From: Actinoallomurus soli
GTDB lineage: Bacteria > Actinomycetota > Actinomycetes > Streptosporangiales > Streptosporangiaceae
Assembly: GCF_024055715.1 (NCBI RefSeq)
Contig: NZ_JAMXMV010000007.1
Span: 248,001-312,000 of the forward strand
DNA: 64,000 bases
Direction: 5' to 3'
Below, in pieces: positions 8,987 through 43,600 of this stretch; within the stretch, counting starts at the first letter, position 1, and every line of letters starts with the position of its first letter. The translations under genes and the position numbers were made by a program. Under the pieces are notes generated by a model. The model did not search any database and was not told the DNA's origin. It was given only the letters and a program-made list of their open reading frames with translations.

Positions 8987-9565
8987 ATGATGACCACGTT
9001 GTGGCGGCCGGTGTGCCTGGCCGTCGTCGGGCTGCTGTCCCTCACGGGCTGCAGTCTCTTCGGGCAGAACAAACTCGTGCGCGGCAGCGTGCCGGACTCG
9101 ATCACGGTGACCAGTCCGGCGTTCCGCGACGGCGCGCCGATGCCCGTCCGTTTCGCCTGCCCACAGTACGGCGGCCGGTCCAAGACGCCGCCGCTGCGCT
9201 GGTCGGTCGCACAGAACGGCGTCGGCTCCCTCGCGCTCGTCATCGACGACCCGGACTCCCCCAGCGGCGCGTACGTCCACTGGGTGCTGTACAACATCGA
9301 CGCCACGGCGGCCGAACTCCTGGAGAACACCGTCCCACCGCACGCCGAACAGGCCGTGAACACCGACCAGAAGGTCGGGTACTCCCCGCCCTGCCCACCG
9401 AAGGGAGAGGTGCACCGGTACCGCTTCACGCTCTACGCGCTGAAGTCGAAGGTGCCCCTGAAGAACGGCGCCGATCTCGGTGACGCGCTGGCGGCGATCG
9501 CCTCCCGTACGATCGCCCGTGGCCGCATGTACGCGATCTTCCGGGGAGCGGTGGTGAAGTCCTGA
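8987..9565 (+). CDS. PEBP / YbhB-YbcL family lipoprotein
   Basis: A 192-residue protein of the phosphatidylethanolamine-binding (Raf kinase inhibitor-like) family, exported and lipid-anchored. The lipobox LTGC places the modified cysteine at residue 22. The mature part carries the family signatures: LALVIDDPDSPSGAYVHWVLYN around residues 85-105 and the GYSPPCPPKGEVHRYRFTLYAL stretch near 130-150, which build the anion-binding pocket. The bacterial role is unknown; binding of a small phosphorylated ligand at the membrane surface is inferred. GGGAG precedes the start; a second ATG three bases downstream (8990) is equally possible. Confidence 0.9.
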   Translation: MMTTLWRPVCLAVVGLLSLTGCSLFGQNKLVRGSVPDSITVTSPAFRDGAPMPVRFACPQYGGRSKTPPLRWSVAQNGVGSLALVIDDPDSPSGAYVHWVLYNIDATAAELLENTVPPHAEQAVNTDQKVGYSPPCPPKGEVHRYRFTLYALKSKVPLKNGADLGDALAAIASRTIARGRMYAIFRGAVVKS

Positions 9566-9671
9566 GGGACGGGCGCCGCTGGTGAGGGCGCTGCGGCGGG
9601 AAGGCCCGCATGGGTTGATGGCACCGGCGGGCCCCAGGGCAAGTACTGTGAATGTAGATCTGTGCGAACCG

Positions 9672-9687
9672 TATGACAAGGGTCATA
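9672..9687. promoter_or_regulatory. Inverted repeat upstream of the Tyr/Ser/Gly-rich protein gene
   Basis: TATGAC-AAGG-GTCATA forms a six-base inverted repeat about 110 bases before the start at 9797, in the most AT-rich part of this intergenic region. It is a candidate operator; no known consensus was recognised. Confidence 0.35.
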
Positions 9688-9796
9688 GCGGTCGGCGACA
9701 ATCGGTCTAGCTCCTTGGGGGGCCCGGTGCCGGTGATCATGGGAAAAGGTCTCCGCGTCGGCGTCGACCGCTAGACCATGGCGTTGGGTGGTAGCT

Positions 9797-11704
9797 ATGT
9801 GGGGTCTGATCGTTGTCCTCGGCTTGGTCGCGGTCGTCATCCTCGTCGGGGTGCTCGTCGCCCTCGGCATGAGGGCGAGCCGCGCCGGAGACGAAGACGA
9901 CTGGATGTCCGACGAGGAGCAGCCTCGGGGCCGCCGCGCCGGCAGATCCCGAGGCCGCCACGGCGACGGTGACGACGCGGTGGAGGAGTCCTACGGCGGC
10001 GGGGACATGCGCGTGGCCGGGGCTCCGATCGGCCAGCAGCACCAGCTGCCCGCCGCGCCGATCGCCGGTCCCGGCGCCGGTCCGGCCCAGCTGCCGGCTC
10101 CGGTCCCCGCGACGCCTCAGGGCAGCCGGAACAGCGACGAGATGGACGACGACGAGTACTGGTCGACCATCACCTTCGACAAGCCCAAGTTCCCCTGGCG
10201 GCAGGACGCCGGGCAGCCGTCCGAGGCGCGGGGGCAGGACCCCCTGGCCCACCAGGAGGGGGCGCGCCCCGAGCCGACGCCGCTCGCGGGCCCGCAGCCG
10301 CAGGGCATGCCCCTCGCCGGCCAGTCCCCGCACGGCGGATCCATCGACTCCCCCGCGCCGCCGACCAGGCCGCAGCCGGCCGTCCCGGCCCTCGACACGC
10401 CGTCGACGCCGCCCGGCCCCCTCGACGTCCCGTCGCTCCCGTCCTCGCTGGACATCCCGTCCTCCGACCGGGTCGCCGAGACCGTGGCGGGCGACGAGAT
10501 CCCCGCCTACGGCTCGACCGACCAGAGCGGCGGCTTCGGCGCACCCGGCTACTCGAGCGAGCCGTCCTACGGCTCGGAGACGCCGTCCTACTCCTCCGAG
10601 TCGCCCTCCTACCTGTCCGAGCCGCCCTCCTACCTGTCCGAGTCGCCGACCTACTCCTCCGAGGCGCCGTCGTACGGCTCCGAGTCCCCTTCGTACGGCT
10701 CGGAGGCGCCCTCCTACGGTTCAGAGGCGCCGTCCTACGGCTCGGAGGCGACGTCCTACTCCTCCGAGACGCCCTACTCGTCCGAGTCGCCCTCCTACGG
10801 CGGCGACCGCCCGTACGGCGACGACCCGCTGAACACCGGCGAGCGCCCGTCGTACGGCTCCGGCTCCCCCGCCGCGCCGACCCCGCCCCCCGCGGCGCCG
10901 GCCCCCTCGCCCCTGGGCTCGTCCTCACCGCTCGGCACCCCTTCGATCAGCGGCAGTGACGACGGCCCCGCCGTCCCGTCGGTCGACGAGCTGCTGGCCA
11001 AGATCCAGCGCCAGCGCGCCGGAGACGGCGACACGGGGTCGGGAGGCTCCGCGCCGGCCGCGCCGGGCTCCGGATCGCCCGGCTTCGACCCGCTCACCGA
11101 CCCGCTGGACACCGGGGAGCGCTCCTACCGCTCGACGCCGGGCGGCTCGTCCACCAGCGGAGGCTGGCCTACCGGCTCCTACGGCTCGTCCGACTCCTAC
11201 AGCGGCGGCGGCTCCGGAGACTCCTACAGCGGCGGCTCCGGAGACTCCTACGGCTCCTCGACGAGCGGCTCGTACGGGTCCGACCCGCTGTCGGGCGGCT
11301 ACAGCTCCACCGGTGGCTACACCGCGCCCTCCTACGACAGCGGTTACGGCTCCTCCTCGGGCTACGGCGACTCCTCACCGTCCTCGGGCTCGTCGTCGTA
11401 CGGCTCGGGCTCGACCGGCCAGGACGACCCGCTGGGCGGCGGGTACACCGGCTCGTCGCCGTCGGACTCGTACGGTTCCTACGGCGGTACGTCCACCGGC
11501 GGCTACACGGGAACCGGCGGCTACCCGGCGGCCGGCTCCTCCTCCTACGGAGGTCCGGCCCACCCCGGGTCCGGTCAGCCGTCCGACGACGCCAACACGA
11601 CGCAGGCATATCCGAGCAGCCCGTACGGCACCTCGTACGGCGACCGGAAGACCGACGACAAGCGCCCCGAAGACTGGAACTACGGCGACCATCGCGGAAG
11701 CTGA
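9797..11704 (+). CDS. Membrane-anchored Tyr/Ser/Gly-rich low-complexity repeat protein
   Basis: The protein (635 residues from ATG 9797) has one N-terminal membrane helix (MWGLIVVLGLVAVVILVGVL) followed by an acidic, then Pro-rich, cytoplasmic-looking tail. Residues about 245-340 repeat a seven-residue unit (consensus SEAPSYG) around twelve times. After a conserved-looking helix (SVDELLAKIQRQRAGD, about 393-408) the sequence turns into Gly-Ser-Tyr dipeptides and tripeptides to about residue 590. The motif DPL(D/N)TGER occurs twice. No enzymatic domain was seen. The composition recalls eukaryotic FUS-like prion-like domains and suggests self-association at the membrane; that is inference. GTG 9788 would add only three residues. 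A 44-base perfect palindrome terminates it. Confidence 0.75.
   Translation: MWGLIVVLGLVAVVILVGVLVALGMRASRAGDEDDWMSDEEQPRGRRAGRSRGRHGDGDDAVEESYGGGDMRVAGAPIGQQHQLPAAPIAGPGAGPAQLPAPVPATPQGSRNSDEMDDDEYWSTITFDKPKFPWRQDAGQPSEARGQDPLAHQEGARPEPTPLAGPQPQGMPLAGQSPHGGSIDSPAPPTRPQPAVPALDTPSTPPGPLDVPSLPSSLDIPSSDRVAETVAGDEIPAYGSTDQSGGFGAPGYSSEPSYGSETPSYSSESPSYLSEPPSYLSESPTYSSEAPSYGSESPSYGSEAPSYGSEAPSYGSEATSYSSETPYSSESPSYGGDRPYGDDPLNTGERPSYGSGSPAAPTPPPAAPAPSPLGSSSPLGTPSISGSDDGPAVPSVDELLAKIQRQRAGDGDTGSGGSAPAAPGSGSPGFDPLTDPLDTGERSYRSTPGGSSTSGGWPTGSYGSSDSYSGGGSGDSYSGGSGDSYGSSTSGSYGSDPLSGGYSSTGGYTAPSYDSGYGSSSGYGDSSPSSGSSSYGSGSTGQDDPLGGGYTGSSPSDSYGSYGGTSTGGYTGTGGYPAAGSSSYGGPAHPGSGQPSDDANTTQAYPSSPYGTSYGDRKTDDKRPEDWNYGDHRGS
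10540..10815 (+). repeat. In-frame heptapeptide repeat array (SEAPSYG)
   Basis: About twelve 21-base units encode variants of SE-x-PSY(G/S/L). The third codon positions vary between units, so the repeat is conserved more at protein than at DNA level. Confidence 0.85.
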
Positions 11705-11956: not shown

Positions 11957-12199
11957 ATGTCCCTCAGATTCGTCGGAATCGACCCGTTCACCAACGGGGA
12001 TAACTGCCCCACCGTGTGGGTGGACGAGAAGACCAGCGAGATCGTCATTCAAGGTTGGACCGCGGACCCCGATACTCGGAGGGAATGCCTGGCGACCGGC
12101 CCGATACCCGACCACGAGACGGTGCTGCGGCTACCGGCGCGGATGGCACCGATCCTGAAGGAGGCGTGCGATGTCGCCGGAGGTCCCATCGTTCAATGA
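11957..12199 (+). CDS. Small hypothetical protein, first gene of a DUF6879/HTH unit
   Basis: An 80-residue soluble acidic protein beginning MSLRFVGIDPFTNGDNCPTV. I recognise no domain with a known activity. The ribosome site AGGAGG (11946-11951) is strong. Its 3' end overlaps the start of the DUF6879 gene by 29 bases, so the two are co-translated. Similar small proteins often precede DUF6879 and Scr1-type HTH genes in actinomycetes, which suggests a shared unit. A TTGACC at about 11883 could be a -35 element. Confidence 0.75.
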   Translation: MSLRFVGIDPFTNGDNCPTVWVDEKTSEIVIQGWTADPDTRRECLATGPIPDHETVLRLPARMAPILKEACDVAGGPIVQ

Positions 12200-12686
12200 C
12201 CTGCTGGCCGAGTGCGACGAGTCGGCCGTCCACCTGGAGATGCGGGACGGCTACACGCCCGGTGATCCCGTCTACCTCGACTGGAGGGCGGGGCTCCGGA
12301 TCGACGGGCCGGAGCGCTATCCCGAATGGTTCGCGCTCGTGCGGACCACCATCGCCCGCGGTGTCCGGATCCGGCGCGTCCGCATCGTGTCGGAACCCCT
12401 GGCGGACTTCATCCGTTTCGAGTACGACGTAACGGGAGGACTTAACGTCGCGGCCGGCGAGCAGGTACGGTGGCTGCCTCGCCGGCAGGCCTCGGACCTG
12501 GCGCTGCCGGGCAACGACTTCTGGGTGTTCGACGGCCGGATCGTACGATTCGGCCACTTCGCCGGAGACGGGCACTTCGTCGGCCACGACGTCTGGGAGG
12601 ATCCTGACGTGGTGAAGCTATGCACCTCCGCCTTCGAGGCGGCGTGGGAACGCGGAGTCGATCACGATGACTATCGCCCCGCCTGA
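12171..12686 (+). CDS. DUF6879 family protein
   Basis: A 171-residue protein that matches the DUF6879 pattern: FNDLLAECDESAVHLEMRDGY at the N-terminus, a central RIRRVRIVSEPLADFIRFEYD strand-helix segment, and WLPRRQASDLALPGNDFWVFDG. Its biochemical function is unknown. Proteins of this family are nearly always encoded next to a DUF5753 HTH regulator, as here, and the pair has been likened to a toxin-antitoxin module, with this protein the candidate toxin or partner. GGAGG lies seven bases before the ATG. The end overlaps the HTH gene by 20 bases. Confidence 0.85.
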   Translation: MSPEVPSFNDLLAECDESAVHLEMRDGYTPGDPVYLDWRAGLRIDGPERYPEWFALVRTTIARGVRIRRVRIVSEPLADFIRFEYDVTGGLNVAAGEQVRWLPRRQASDLALPGNDFWVFDGRIVRFGHFAGDGHFVGHDVWEDPDVVKLCTSAFEAAWERGVDHDDYRPA

Positions 12687-13569
12687 GCGCCCCCGGCCAT
12701 CACGGGGGACCGCCGCGTCCACGACATCACCGTCCTCGTCCGTCCAGGCGGCCCGCCAGGCCATCGCCGACCGGCTGCGGGAGATCAGGGTCGACGCCGG
12801 ACTGACCGCCAAGGCACTCGCCGCCGCCGCCGCGTGGGACCGCACCAAGGTCTCCAAGATCGAGCACGCCTCCCGGCCGCCCTCCGCCGACGACATCCGC
12901 CGCTGGTGCGCCGTCTGCCAGGCCGAGGACCAGGTTCCCGACCTCGTGGCCTCACTGCGGACCGTCGAGGGCGCCTACGTCGAGTGGCGGCGGCTGCAGC
13001 GCACCGGCCTGCGCCGGCTCCAGGAGTCACGCGTTCCGCTGTACGAGCGGACCCGCAGCTTCCGCGTCTACTGCTCCCAGGTCGTGCCGGGGCTGTTCCA
13101 GACGCCCGCGTACGCCGGAGCGCTCCTGTCGGCCATCACGACCTTCCACGGCACCCCGAACGACGTCGAGGAGGCGGTGGCCGCCCGGATGTCCCGCTCC
13201 CACGTCGTACGGGACGGCGCCCACCGGTTCGCCGTGCTCGTCGAGGAGTCGGTGCTCCGCTACCAGGTCGGCGGCCCCGACACCATGGCCGGGCAGTTGC
13301 ACCACCTCCTGGACGTCATGGCGCTGCCGTCCGTGTCTCTCGGCGTCATCCCCTTCGACCACGGCGGCCGCCGGATGTGGACGCTGGAGGGCTTCAACGT
13401 CTTCGACTCCGTCCAGGTCTCGGTGGAGCTGCTGTCGGCCGCGGTGACGGTCACCACGCCGGGCGAGGTGGACCTGTACGTCAAGGCCTTCACCGAGCTG
13501 TCCGCCATGGCGGTCTTCGGCACGGCGGCACGAACGCTCATCACCGCCGCGATCGACGCCCTCGACTGA
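12667..13569 (+). CDS. XRE-type HTH regulator with DUF5753 (Scr1-like)
   Basis: The 300-residue product has an XRE helix-turn-helix at about 27-85 (LREIRVDAGLTAKALAAAAAWDRTKVSKIEHA) and a C-terminal DUF5753 domain (about 105-290), recognisable from YERTRSFRVYCSQVVPGLFQTPAYAGALL and the VSLGVIPF block. Scr1-type proteins pair with small partner proteins as antitoxin-like regulators, and bald-phenotype regulators of Streptomyces belong to the same group. It overlaps and follows the DUF6879 gene, so the two are expressed together. Autoregulation is likely but no operator was found. Confidence 0.9.
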   Translation: MTIAPPERPRPSRGTAASTTSPSSSVQAARQAIADRLREIRVDAGLTAKALAAAAAWDRTKVSKIEHASRPPSADDIRRWCAVCQAEDQVPDLVASLRTVEGAYVEWRRLQRTGLRRLQESRVPLYERTRSFRVYCSQVVPGLFQTPAYAGALLSAITTFHGTPNDVEEAVAARMSRSHVVRDGAHRFAVLVEESVLRYQVGGPDTMAGQLHHLLDVMALPSVSLGVIPFDHGGRRMWTLEGFNVFDSVQVSVELLSAAVTVTTPGEVDLYVKAFTELSAMAVFGTAARTLITAAIDALD

Positions 13570-14507: not shown

Positions 14508-15173
14508 ATGCACCACCGAGGTTTCCTCTCCCGCCGGGCGCTCCGCGCCCTGACCCTGCTGTCGGCGGCGGTGTTGTTCCTGGTCCCCTGGGCCGACGCC
14601 GCCTTCGCCCACGGTTCGGTCGTCGACCCCGCCTCCCGCAACTACGGCTGCTGGCAGCGCTGGGGAAGCGACTTCCAGGACCCCGCGATGCAGCAGCAGG
14701 ACCCGATGTGCTGGCAGGCATGGCAGGACAACCCCAACGCCATGTGGAACTGGAACGGTCTCTACCGCAACGGCCTCGGCGGCAACTTCCAGGCGGGCCT
14801 GCCGGACGGTCAGCTCTGCAGCGGCGGCCTGACCGAAAGCGGCCGGTACCGCTCCCTGGACGTCCCCGGCGCGTGGAAGATGACCAACATCCACAACACC
14901 TTCTCGGTCCACCTGATGGACCAGGCCAGGCACGGCGCCGACTACCTTCTCGTCTACGTCACCCGCCAGGGGTACGACGCCCTCACCCAGCCCCTGCGCT
15001 GGAGCGACCTGGAGCTGATCCGCAAGACCGGCAAGTACGCGCCCGGCAGTGACTACATCGTCGACAACCTCAGCGCCCCCGGCCGTACGGGCCGCCACGT
15101 CGTCTTCACGATCTGGCAGGCCTCGCACATGGACCAGGCGTTCTTCTTCTGCAGCGACGTGAACTTCAGCTGA
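14508..15173 (+). CDS. AA10 lytic polysaccharide monooxygenase, secreted
   Basis: A copper enzyme of 221 residues that cleaves cellulose or chitin oxidatively outside the cell. The signal peptide ends AFA before H35, which becomes the amino-terminal histidine of the copper brace (HGSVVDPASR). The second brace histidine is H142 in QARHGADYLLVYVT. The axial position before the CSDVNF ending is phenylalanine (F212), as in most bacterial AA10 enzymes. The mature length is that of a catalytic domain alone, with no binding module. WQASHMDQ near the end is a common AA10 signature. Substrate is undecided; cellulose or chitin are both possible. The upstream inverted repeat suggests sugar-dependent control. 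A strong hairpin follows. Confidence 0.95.
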   Translation: MHHRGFLSRRALRALTLLSAAVLFLVPWADAAFAHGSVVDPASRNYGCWQRWGSDFQDPAMQQQDPMCWQAWQDNPNAMWNWNGLYRNGLGGNFQAGLPDGQLCSGGLTESGRYRSLDVPGAWKMTNIHNTFSVHLMDQARHGADYLLVYVTRQGYDALTQPLRWSDLELIRKTGKYAPGSDYIVDNLSAPGRTGRHVVFTIWQASHMDQAFFFCSDVNFS

Positions 15174-40600: not shown

Positions 40601-43600
40601 CTACCTGTCGGACGGCGGCGGGAAACGGCGGCGGAAACGGTCGAACCGGCCGGGCGCTCCACCGATGTCACGCTCGGGCGGCGCGGGCGGGGACTGCGTA
40701 CGCGCGGGATCGTTCGCCGGGTCGTCGACGGAGGGATCGGTCTCCGGCCCCGGCGCGGCCCCCTGTGACGCACCCGGCACGCCCGCGCCGCCGGGTGCCC
40801 CGGGGGGATTCGCCCCGCCGGAGGTGTACGAGGTGCCGGGGGCACCCGGCGGGCCGGGTAGGCCTGGTCCGCCGGGGAGACCCGGCGACGGGTACGTCGC
40901 TCCCGTGTCCGGCGCGGCACCGGCCGGACCGGGCGTGTGGAACGGCGTCCCGCCGTACGCCGATGAGGAGGGCGGGGCTCCCCCCGGAAGGGGCGAGGAG
41001 GCACCGGGAGCCGGCCCCGTGCCCGGAAATGTCGGCGGAGCAGGAGGCACCGGCCGCTGACCCGGCGGCGAGGGAAACGGCGCCGGGCCGAGAGGATCGG
41101 CCGCCGCCCGGCCGGGGACGCGCGGGTCGTCCGGCGCCTGCGGAGAAAAGCGCGGGTCGGCGGGCAGGCCGCCCGTCGCAAGCGGGTCGGCGGTCGGCCC
41201 ACCCGTCGCGAGCGGGTCGCTCAGCGGATCCCTCAACCGCCGCCGACCGGTCAACGGATCGCTCGTCCCCCGCCGATCGGCCAACGGGTCACTCGGCGTC
41301 TGTGGAGCGGCCGCCGGGGTACCTGGACTGCGCGGATCGGTCAACGGCCCACCCGGGGTCCACCCATCCGCCAACGGATCATTCGGCACCTGCGGACCGG
41401 CCGGAGGACCGCCCGGACGGCGAGAATCGGCCGACGGGGCGCCCAGACCACGCGGATCGGTCAACGGCCCACCCGGAATCCGCCCATCGGCCGGCGAGCC
41501 ACTCGGCACCTGCGGAGCGGCCGACGGGGCCCCCAGACCGAGGGGATCGGTCAACGGCCCGCCCGGGATCCGCCCATCGGCCGCCGGATCGCCGGGTGCC
41601 GGGGAGGCGGCGGGCAGATCGCTCGATCTCCGCGGGTCGGCCGATGAGCCGGTCGGCGGCTCGACCACATTGTGCGGCCCGGTCTGTGGCTGGGCCGGAG
41701 CGTGCGGACCGGTCTGCGACTCGGCCAGGGCATGCGGACCGGTCTGCGAACCGGCCAAGGGCTGCGGACCGGTCTGCGAACCGGCCGGAGCCTGCGGATC
41801 CGCGGCATGCCGCGCGTGCCGCGCCGAGGTCGTGGGTCTCAGGTGGCTTTTCGCGAACTGCTCCACCTGTGCCTTGGCCTCGTCGGCCTCCGCCCGCGCG
41901 GCGTCGCGTTCGGCGATCATCGTGGCCAGCGCGGCGCGAAGCTGGCTCAGCATGCTGGACCGTTCCTTGGCCTGCAGCTGGTACTGCGCCAGCTTGGTCC
42001 GCGCCTCCTCCAGCTCACGGCGAGCGGACTCGATCTCCTCGGTGAGCCGTGCGGCCTCCTCCACGCGGGGCCGTGCCGTTTCGAGTTCCCCGCGCGAGGT
42101 CTCCAGGTCGGCCCGGACCGTCTCCAACTCGCTCCGAGCGCCGTCCAGCTCGGCACGGGCACGGTCCAAATCGGCACGGGCGCTCTCCGCGTCGCCCCGA
42201 GCGGTCTCCAACTCGGCGCCAGTGCTCTCCAGATCCCCGCGAGCGCTCTCCAGCTCGGTGCGAGTGCCCTCCAAGTCGCCGCGGACGCTCTCCAGCTCGG
42301 TGCGGGCCTCCTCCCGCTCGGCACGGGTGCGTTCGAGCTCGCCGCGGAGCTCCTCGGCCTCGGCCATCGCCGTATCCCGCTGGCCGCTCACCTCGTCGGC
42401 GTGCGCGCGTGCCTCCAGGGCCTGCCGGTCGGCTGCGGCCCGTGCCTGTTCGGCGGCCGCACGAGCGCTCTGCGCGAGTTCGGCCGTGGTGCGCATCTTG
42501 TTCAGCTCAGACTCGGCGGCTCGGAGCTGCGAGCGCATCTCCTCCACCGCCGCGGCCCGTTTCTGCAGCTCTTTGGCCTCGGCGAGCTCCGCCCGATGGC
42601 GCGCGTTCTCGTCGCGGGCCAGGTCCAGTGCCGAGGTCAGTTCGGCGATCCGGTGGGTGAGACGGTCGCGCTCCTCGCGTACGGCCGTGATCGCCTCGGT
42701 CGCCGCCTCCGCCGTCCGGGTCGCCTGGTCCCCGATGTCGCGCGCGGCGTCCCGTTCGGTGCGGGCGGCCTCCAATCGCGAGGTCAGCTCGGCGACGGCG
42801 GTCTCGGCCCGCTCGGCCCGGCGCCGTACGTCCCCGAGCTGGGCGAGTACCTGTTCGGCGTCCAGCCGGGCCGCCTCGCGGTCCCGCTGCGCCTCGGCGA
42901 CGGCGGCGGCCGCCTCCGCCCTCGCCTCGGCGATCCGCCGCTCGACTCCCGCGACGCTGAGATCCGCCGTCAGGGACATCGCCAGCAGCTCGGCGACGTC
43001 CTCCAGCCGTTCGACCATGTCCCAGGTCCGCGCGACCTGCCCGGCGAGACCCGGGGAGTCCTGGTCGCGGCGGCGCCGCTCGGCCGCCGTCTGGGCGCAG
43101 GCGCCGTCGTTGTCGAGGCAGTACCGCACGACGGGTCCCGCCTCGCCCGGCTGCGGGATCGGACGCCCGCAGTAGGCGCAGGGGCGCGTCACGGCGTCAC
43201 TCCCGTCCGGGGACGGGAAGGGTCGCGTCACGGCGGCGTCGCTCCCGTCCGGGGACGGGAGCGGTCGCATCCCGTCTTGGGAGGGGGGCGGGTCCTTCTG
43301 TCTCGCCGAGGCGTCGTCGGCCGGGTGGGCGTCCGGCCCCGGCGCGCCTTGTTCGGCGAGCCGGTCGCTCTCGCCTTCACCTTCGTCCACCGATCCGGAG
43401 CCCGTCTCAGGGGTTTCCTCGTCCGCTCGGGAGGTCTCGTCCCGTACGGCGTCCTCCTGCGCGGGAACGGTGTTCCGGGAGTCCTCCGCCGCCGGGGCGG
43501 TATCGGCCGAAGCCGGAGCGGCGTCCGTGTCGGCCGCGGAGCGGTCCGTACCGGGCGGGCCGGCAGGGCCCGGGGCGTCGTCGCCGGAGGTCACGGCGGC

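Follow-up and report, generated by a model that had tools for sequence, protein, structure and literature searches.

A membrane-anchored protein with an aromatic-rich, predicted disordered tail in Actinoallomurus soli and related soil bacteria

The locus and the encoded protein

We analysed a 64,000-nucleotide stretch (hereafter, the window) of the 9.4 Mb genome of Actinoallomurus soli (contig NZ_JAMXMV010000007.1, positions 248,001 to 312,000). An open frame on its forward strand begins at a GTG (9788) or an ATG (9797) and ends at 11704. The ATG, which gives a protein of 635 amino acids, is the point from which six homologues (L002-L007) align. We confirmed the presence of this frame and, within it, of a membrane helix, a block of heptad repeats, a short internal helix and a Gly/Ser/Tyr-rich stretch (Table 1).

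Table 1. Features of the locus (positions in the window; aa, residues of the 635-aa protein)
Feature	Position	Strand	Basis
PEBP/YbhB-like lipoprotein gene, upstream	8987..9565	+	Pfam PF01161, 1.2e-27; LTGC lipobox read from sequence
Candidate promoter-like block, dyad TATGAC-AAGG-GTCATA (9672-9687), -10-like GACAAT	9671..9702	+	putative role
CDS of membrane-anchored disordered protein, 635 aa	9797..11704	+	open reading frame and homologues
Single membrane helix, aa 1-27	9797..9877	+	AlphaFold2 helix 2-27; flanking charges counted in 76 proteins
Conserved motif SDEMDDDEYWSTITFDKPKFPWRQ, aa 113-136	10133..10204	+	almost unchanged within subfamily A
Tract of SExPSYG heptads, about 12 units with Tyr, aa 253-336, specific to the lineage	10553..10804	+	TRF and alignment
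DDPLNTGER box	10820..10846	+	conservation in alignment
Short helix SVDELLAKIQRQRA (VDELLAKIQ), aa 395-408	10979..11020	+	AlphaFold2 helix 396-407; 40/41 subfamily A proteins
Gly/Ser/Tyr-rich tail, aa 430-600	11084..11596	+	composition
DPLDTGER, second such box	11099..11122	+	conservation in alignment
Conserved C-terminal stretch TQAYPSSPYG...DKRPEDWN	11600..11701	+	alignment

AlphaFold2 assigned a pLDDT below 50 to 526 of the 635 residues (mean 42) and, apart from the two helices in Table 1 and one of three residues, predicted no other helix. Confidence was high for the membrane helix (block means of 88 and 91 for residues 1-20) and modest for the internal one (69 and 65). No Pfam or NCBIfam model matched the protein at E ≤ 0.01, and a search for solved relatives of the VDELL stretch, made with homologue L049, gave only a designed helix bundle, which matched weakly (E 0.063). 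An earlier, sequence-only reading of this DNA had described one membrane helix carrying a long tail with about twelve SEAPSYG heptads and a later GSY-rich stretch, and this description holds. The strict pattern [SGL]SE.[PT][ST]Y fits 10 units (about 12 when applied loosely), with Glu and Tyr present in 10 of 10, and TRF reports a 21-bp unit in 11.6 copies (10561-10801, score 209). Heptad positions 1 and 4 vary the most. The same reading took third-position variation between units as a sign that selection keeps the protein pattern. This is only partly true, since 74 of the 156 pairwise codon differences among heptads are synonymous and 82 are not, with 0.26, 0.10 and 0.34 differences per codon at codon positions 1, 2 and 3.

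The tail had also been called FUS-like. The prion-like domains of the eukaryotic FUS/FET proteins are rich in Gln, Ser, Tyr and Gly, are nearly uncharged and accompany an RNA-binding domain (RRM, zinc finger). The 635-aa protein resembles them in its 24 [GS]Y[GS] sites and in two long stretches with Tyr about every 7-10 residues; of its 40 tyrosines, 38 lie beyond residue 235. It differs in having a membrane helix, little Gln or Asn (together 1.0% of the heptad block and 1.6% of residues 413-600) and a strongly acidic character (net charge -14 and -13, respectively), and the Pfam and NCBIfam searches (E ≤ 0.01) returned no RNA-binding domain. The term therefore fits only loosely and covers the Tyr/Gly/Ser stretches.

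Upstream of the gene, a TGAC-N4-GTCA dyad followed by a -10-like AAT is common to two of the three subfamilies described below (A and B); in the window it lies 95-125 bp before the start codon. The dyad takes the form TGTGACAA(C/G)GGTCAT in the window (9671-9796) and in the leaders of L052-L060, L115-L127 and L161-L164. A pattern for the whole block matches 34 of 43 leaders in subfamily A, 8 of 33 in B and 0 of 6 in C, where mononucleotide shuffles predict 0.005 matches per set; as the leaders are related, this count is not an independent test. The leader of subfamily B, about 110 nt long, shows 88% mean column identity (24 of 33 leaders), and that of subfamily A 53% (29 of 43). Given the conservation in subfamily B, we considered a structured RNA leader, but neither Rfam, pair changes nor folding energy gave any sign of one. 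Rfam returned no match for the window and L054 leaders other than one chance match at E 0.65, two-sided changes occurred in 1 of 44 predicted pairs in B and 0 of 13 in A, and the folding energies of four leaders lay within those of shuffles (z +0.2 to -1.6). We treat the conservation as that of a probable promoter and leader sequence.

Family, conserved parts and topology

The 635-aa protein is the Actinoallomurus member of a protein family of soil bacteria that has no Pfam or NCBIfam name, and a literature search recognised no description of the disordered-tail protein or of its pairing with a PEBP gene. Its nearest named relatives by protein identity are those of Actinoallomurus spadix (L002, 87%) and A. 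purpureus (L003, 76%), which NCBI places in the order Streptosporangiales, family Thermomonosporaceae. Identity to the six homologues ranges from 59 to 87%. Almost the whole membrane helix is invariant among them, as are WM, EQPRGRR, DMRVAG, EMDDDEYWSTITFDKP, PSVD-LLAKIQ, the DPL boxes and some of the C-terminus. A search with the N-terminal 142 residues matched 90 of 250 family-group genomes (E ≤ 0.001); a profile built from 21 rows of subfamilies A and B found 183 of the 250, in 47 of 68 genus groups (E ≤ 1e-4). Among 296 genomes sampled across the class, 24 matched the profile and seven family-group genomes were among those that did not. Twenty-one of the matches belong to the family group, and the three from elsewhere are weak (E 2e-5 to 7e-4).

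Three subfamilies can be told apart by their motifs. Subfamily A is marked by DDDYWATITFDKPKFPW and PTVDELLQRIQ, subfamily B by DDYDDDYWSRVRADDG and a WPSYDELY-type motif (23 of 29 proteins), and subfamily C by DNDFWSSL and repeats such as YDTGSHSRP. An acidic-aromatic-Trp motif is present in 73 of 76 proteins, and D118, Y121 and W122 of the SDEMDDDEYWSTITFDKPKFPWRQ motif are invariant in subfamily B too. The VDELLAKIQ helix, which the sequence-only reading thought conserved, is predicted by AlphaFold2 and recurs by pattern in 40 of 41 subfamily A proteins (the one lacking it has a truncated frame), whereas the pattern search found it in none of 29 B and 5 C proteins; its conservation is confined to subfamily A. 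One sequence (L062) was dropped as a chance match and another (L122), which contains a run of N, was excluded from the composition and later analyses.

The charges that flank the membrane helix are uniform. In all 76 proteins, the checked stretch of up to 8 residues before the helix contains no Lys or Arg, and the first charge past the helix is Arg in 75 and Lys in one; in the 635-aa protein, nothing basic precedes the helix and R26 stands at its end. By the positive-inside rule, this pattern suggests that the tail faces the cytoplasm. A C-terminal sortase signal comprises LPxTG, a helix and a basic end; an LPxTG-like string occurs in 1 of the 76 proteins, LAxTG in none, and a second hydrophobic stretch in two. 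The protein is thus predicted to combine one membrane helix with a long disordered tail that is cytoplasmic by its charge pattern, and it has no enzymatic domain that we recognised. Membrane-attached RNase E and RNase Y likewise join a membrane anchor to a disordered region, but they carry a catalytic domain, and Pfam and NCBIfam recognise none in the 635-aa protein.

Tail composition and repeat turnover

Aromatic residues make up a nearly constant share of the tail: 7.98% in subfamily A (n = 40), 7.92% in B (n = 29) and 8.34% in C (n = 5), with one truncated frame (L087) excluded from the counts. Phe stands in for part of the Tyr in subfamily B, which includes a few low-aromatic members (L116, L120, L126 and L127; 4.6-6.1%). 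Under one segment rule, the family has 7.8% aromatics (121 segments, sd 2.1) and the 259 neighbouring ORFs 5.1% (40 disordered-like segments, sd 4.2, maximum 20%), so the enrichment is only modest, given the wide scatter of the background segments. We had predicted that the aromatics would be evenly spaced, and this prediction failed. Over whole tails they cluster instead (subfamily means of z from +2.5 to +3.4), where simple sticker theory might suggest even spacing.

The repeats themselves turn over quickly. Counts of the heptad pattern fall from 8 in the window to 5 in L002, 3 in L003 and 0 in L004-L007. Among the 76 homologues examined, 59 had a scorable tandem tract, and in 21 of these the tract was well above shuffles. 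The units vary by species, even inside one genus group; examples are SEAPSYG, QYADQ, YETPS, SYGDSLSGSSG, PYAEQ, APYGGEQ and FDASPATGS. In 17 of the 21 tracts at least 80% of the units contain an aromatic residue; for random windows the corresponding share is 52% (P = 0.005 by a binomial test, uncorrected for kinship). The 21 tracts represent 10 genus groups and are not independent, as six come from one genus group and three each from two others; in 8 of the 10 groups all tracts follow the aromatic rule, or two of three do (Actinoallomurus). The four tracts that do not fit are those of L003, L048, L081 and L121. L048 and L081, which belong to one genus group, share a large tail repeat, APDPLGMGPQQPTH, without aromatic residues.

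When the tail of the 635-aa protein is aligned with four of its six relatives, Tyr is retained at 73 of 83 sites, compared with 126 of 172 for Ser and 125 of 170 for Gly (P = 0.009 for each comparison when pooled; one of eight single comparisons falls under 0.05). Values of dN/dS for residues 430-600 range from 0.31 to 0.66; those of the short motif segments are erratic (0 to 1.49), so this ratio cannot tell motifs from tail. Taken at the level of sequence, the tail looks like one that evolves under a constraint on composition. The comparison of relatives proposed with the sequence-only reading thus divides: the membrane helix and a Tyr-rich tail with about 8% aromatics are kept, and the heptads are lineage-specific. 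The earlier interpretation as a whole is partly supported.

Gene neighbourhood and possible function

A gene for a PEBP lipoprotein lies directly upstream on the same strand, 144-482 bp away, in all 43 loci whose upstream sequence reached far enough (40 others had too little). These loci are not a random sample, because 10 were chosen for a SulP-carbonic anhydrase gene and 7 (L161-L167) mainly for losses, and the 8 that are Actinoallomurus-type may repeat a species. A search that started from PEBP recovered the same two genes in G078 and G110, genomes that the profile had not matched. Outside the family group, no such protein was found downstream on the same strand in 8 PEBP loci (from 18 matching genomes), two of which (L168 and L173) have less than 2 kb of contig remaining.

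Downstream, many relatives encode a SulP transporter fused to a beta-carbonic anhydrase (PF00916, PF00484; SulP-CA), which is present whole or in part in 28 of the 43 loci. Among the matches listed for the two genes (149 and 143 genomes), 102 genomes have both, and in 88 of these they are adjacent on the same strand. Twelve of the other 14 have a truncated frame of the disordered protein (130-320 aa), as occurs at contig ends; of the remaining two, G016 has the adjacency through a second copy, and the last is G099. Approached from the SulP-CA side, 11 of 14 loci in the family group (including L128, already known to have it) encode the disordered protein upstream, and the PEBP gene is present in exactly those 11. 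The three without it are L117, L118 and L125, with frames judged by eye. Twenty SulP-CA loci were examined in five other families, in which 35 genomes matched; neither the protein nor PEBP was found within about 4.5 kb of any of them, after unrelated ORFs that had passed the filter at L130 and L141 were excluded by eye.

The pair is nevertheless retained without an adjacent SulP or carbonic anhydrase piece in 15 of the 43 loci, from seven genus groups that include Actinoallomurus. In G062, G019 and G057 the order is PEBP, disordered protein and an epimerase-like gene, with no SulP-CA between; in other loci this third gene comes after SulP-CA. In eight Actinoallomurus genomes the fused SulP-CA was not matched, only separate SulP and carbonic anhydrase regions. 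The fusion also appears in reduced form: after the gene, the query matches through its carbonic anhydrase part alone in L043, L076-L079, L089 and L091-L093, and in G106 (L164) the SulP part follows without the carbonic anhydrase part. A BTAD regulator cluster is nearby in 16 of 27 loci; as the wider gene order is partly conserved, some of the linkage may reflect common descent. The steadiest neighbour among those compared is the PEBP lipoprotein, and carbonic anhydrase is frequent but dispensable.

Nearly constant aromatic content in the face of changing repeats makes aromatic clustering the most economical reading of the tail. We favour, at a probability of about one half, a membrane-tethered, cytoplasm-facing, intrinsically disordered scaffold whose copies would be clustered by weak aromatic contacts. 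The clustered spacing of the aromatics, their modest enrichment, the four low-aromatic B members and the four tracts that break the aromatic rule weigh against it. The N-terminal helix would tether the protein to the membrane, while short motifs would dock partner proteins: D-[DE]-Y-W..FDKPKF and the VDELLxxIQ helix, the latter in subfamily A. Many weak Tyr/Phe contacts could then gather copies into a patch on the membrane surface, in which docked partners would be concentrated. That partner could be SulP-CA in many relatives; in Actinoallomurus, which yielded no fused SulP-CA, a different partner would be required. Because the PEBP lipoprotein is the steadiest partner gene, a role at the membrane, for example in lipid or envelope organisation, appears more likely than a purely carbonate-related one. 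A fuller version of this scaffold has a low probability: two-dimensional condensates under the membrane, in which an aromatic "sticker" scaffold would organise the lipid-binding lipoprotein and often the bicarbonate transporter-carbonic anhydrase, its units repeatedly reinvented and its aromatics held nearly fixed.

The neighbouring genes suggest two other roles. The protein might be a dedicated scaffold for handling inorganic carbon, its tail gathering the SulP bicarbonate transporter, together with the fused carbonic anhydrase, at the membrane in the manner of the disordered linkers of CO2-fixing compartments. CsoS2 and EPYC1 are disordered, repeat-bearing scaffolds of CO2-fixing compartments, and the family resembles them in its repeats, its disorder and the carbonic anhydrase gene that adjoins it in many relatives; it differs, as far as a comparison by description goes, in being anchored in the membrane and in being kept where no carbonic anhydrase is adjacent. 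The adjacency in the genomes that have both genes, with most exceptions being truncated frames, and the loci with a carbonic anhydrase part alone (e.g., L043 and L076-L079) favour such a scaffold. Persistence of the protein and PEBP in the 15 loci, the separate genes of Actinoallomurus, the carbonic anhydrase-less SulP of G106 and the SulP-CA loci of other families, which have no such neighbour, make it unlikely. A scaffold for carbonic anhydrase only, which was our first idea, was weakened by the loci and genomes without adjacent SulP-CA. The invariable upstream gene, and its presence in exactly those SulP-CA loci that have the protein, would fit a protein that partners or regulates the PEBP lipoprotein. 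The two products would act as a pair across the membrane in sensing lipids or envelope stress, and the tail would relay the signal without assembly. However, gene position is what links the two products, and the distance between the genes, together with the conserved promoter-like block before the second (subfamilies A and B), means that co-transcription is not implied; we regard this pair, too, as improbable.

The remaining explanations concern the tail itself. It could be a spacer that matters solely for its length and solubility, and the fast repeat turnover, the absence of the heptads from close relatives and dN/dS values of up to 0.66 are what such a spacer would show. Set against this are aromatics near 8% in three diverged subfamilies, the better retention of Tyr than of Ser and Gly when pooled, and internal and C-terminal motifs that are conserved across genus groups, and we consider a mere spacer distinctly unlikely. 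The tail could also lie outside the membrane and span or strengthen the cell wall, as do other surface proteins of filamentous actinomycetes. SspA of Actinoplanes missouriensis is reported to be a predicted disordered protein that is exported and anchored to the wall by sortase (PMC13293333). Both proteins are predicted to be disordered and come from filamentous actinomycetes, but the 635-aa protein shows no sorting signal, its family has a cytoplasm-facing charge pattern throughout, and LPxTG-like strings (1 of 76) and second hydrophobic stretches (2 of 76) are both rare; a wall location is very unlikely.

The scaffold clustered by aromatic contacts would be of interest for several reasons. 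To our knowledge, bacterial condensate candidates that are tethered to the membrane, have no folded domain and turn over their repeats at nearly constant aromatic content have rarely been described. More than 180 genomes provide a natural experiment, in which the repeats carry Tyr in many species and Phe in others and the neighbouring enzyme has been lost in some, and the locus is a new context for SulP-carbonic anhydrase fusions. PEBP/YbhB genes, according to a review, rarely stand in conserved positional associations (PMC8793217), and the present pair gives a bacterial PEBP protein a steady gene partner in a family said mostly to lack them.

Other features of the window lie downstream of the gene. 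A DUF6879 gene and then a helix-turn-helix/DUF5753 regulator occupy 12171-13569, and L002 and L003 have comparable ORFs after the gene. A lytic polysaccharide mono-oxygenase gene (PF03067 LPMO_10, 5.2e-47) is located at 14508-15173, and TRF reports several overlapping tandem repeat arrays, with periods of 21 to 120, at 41152-42322.
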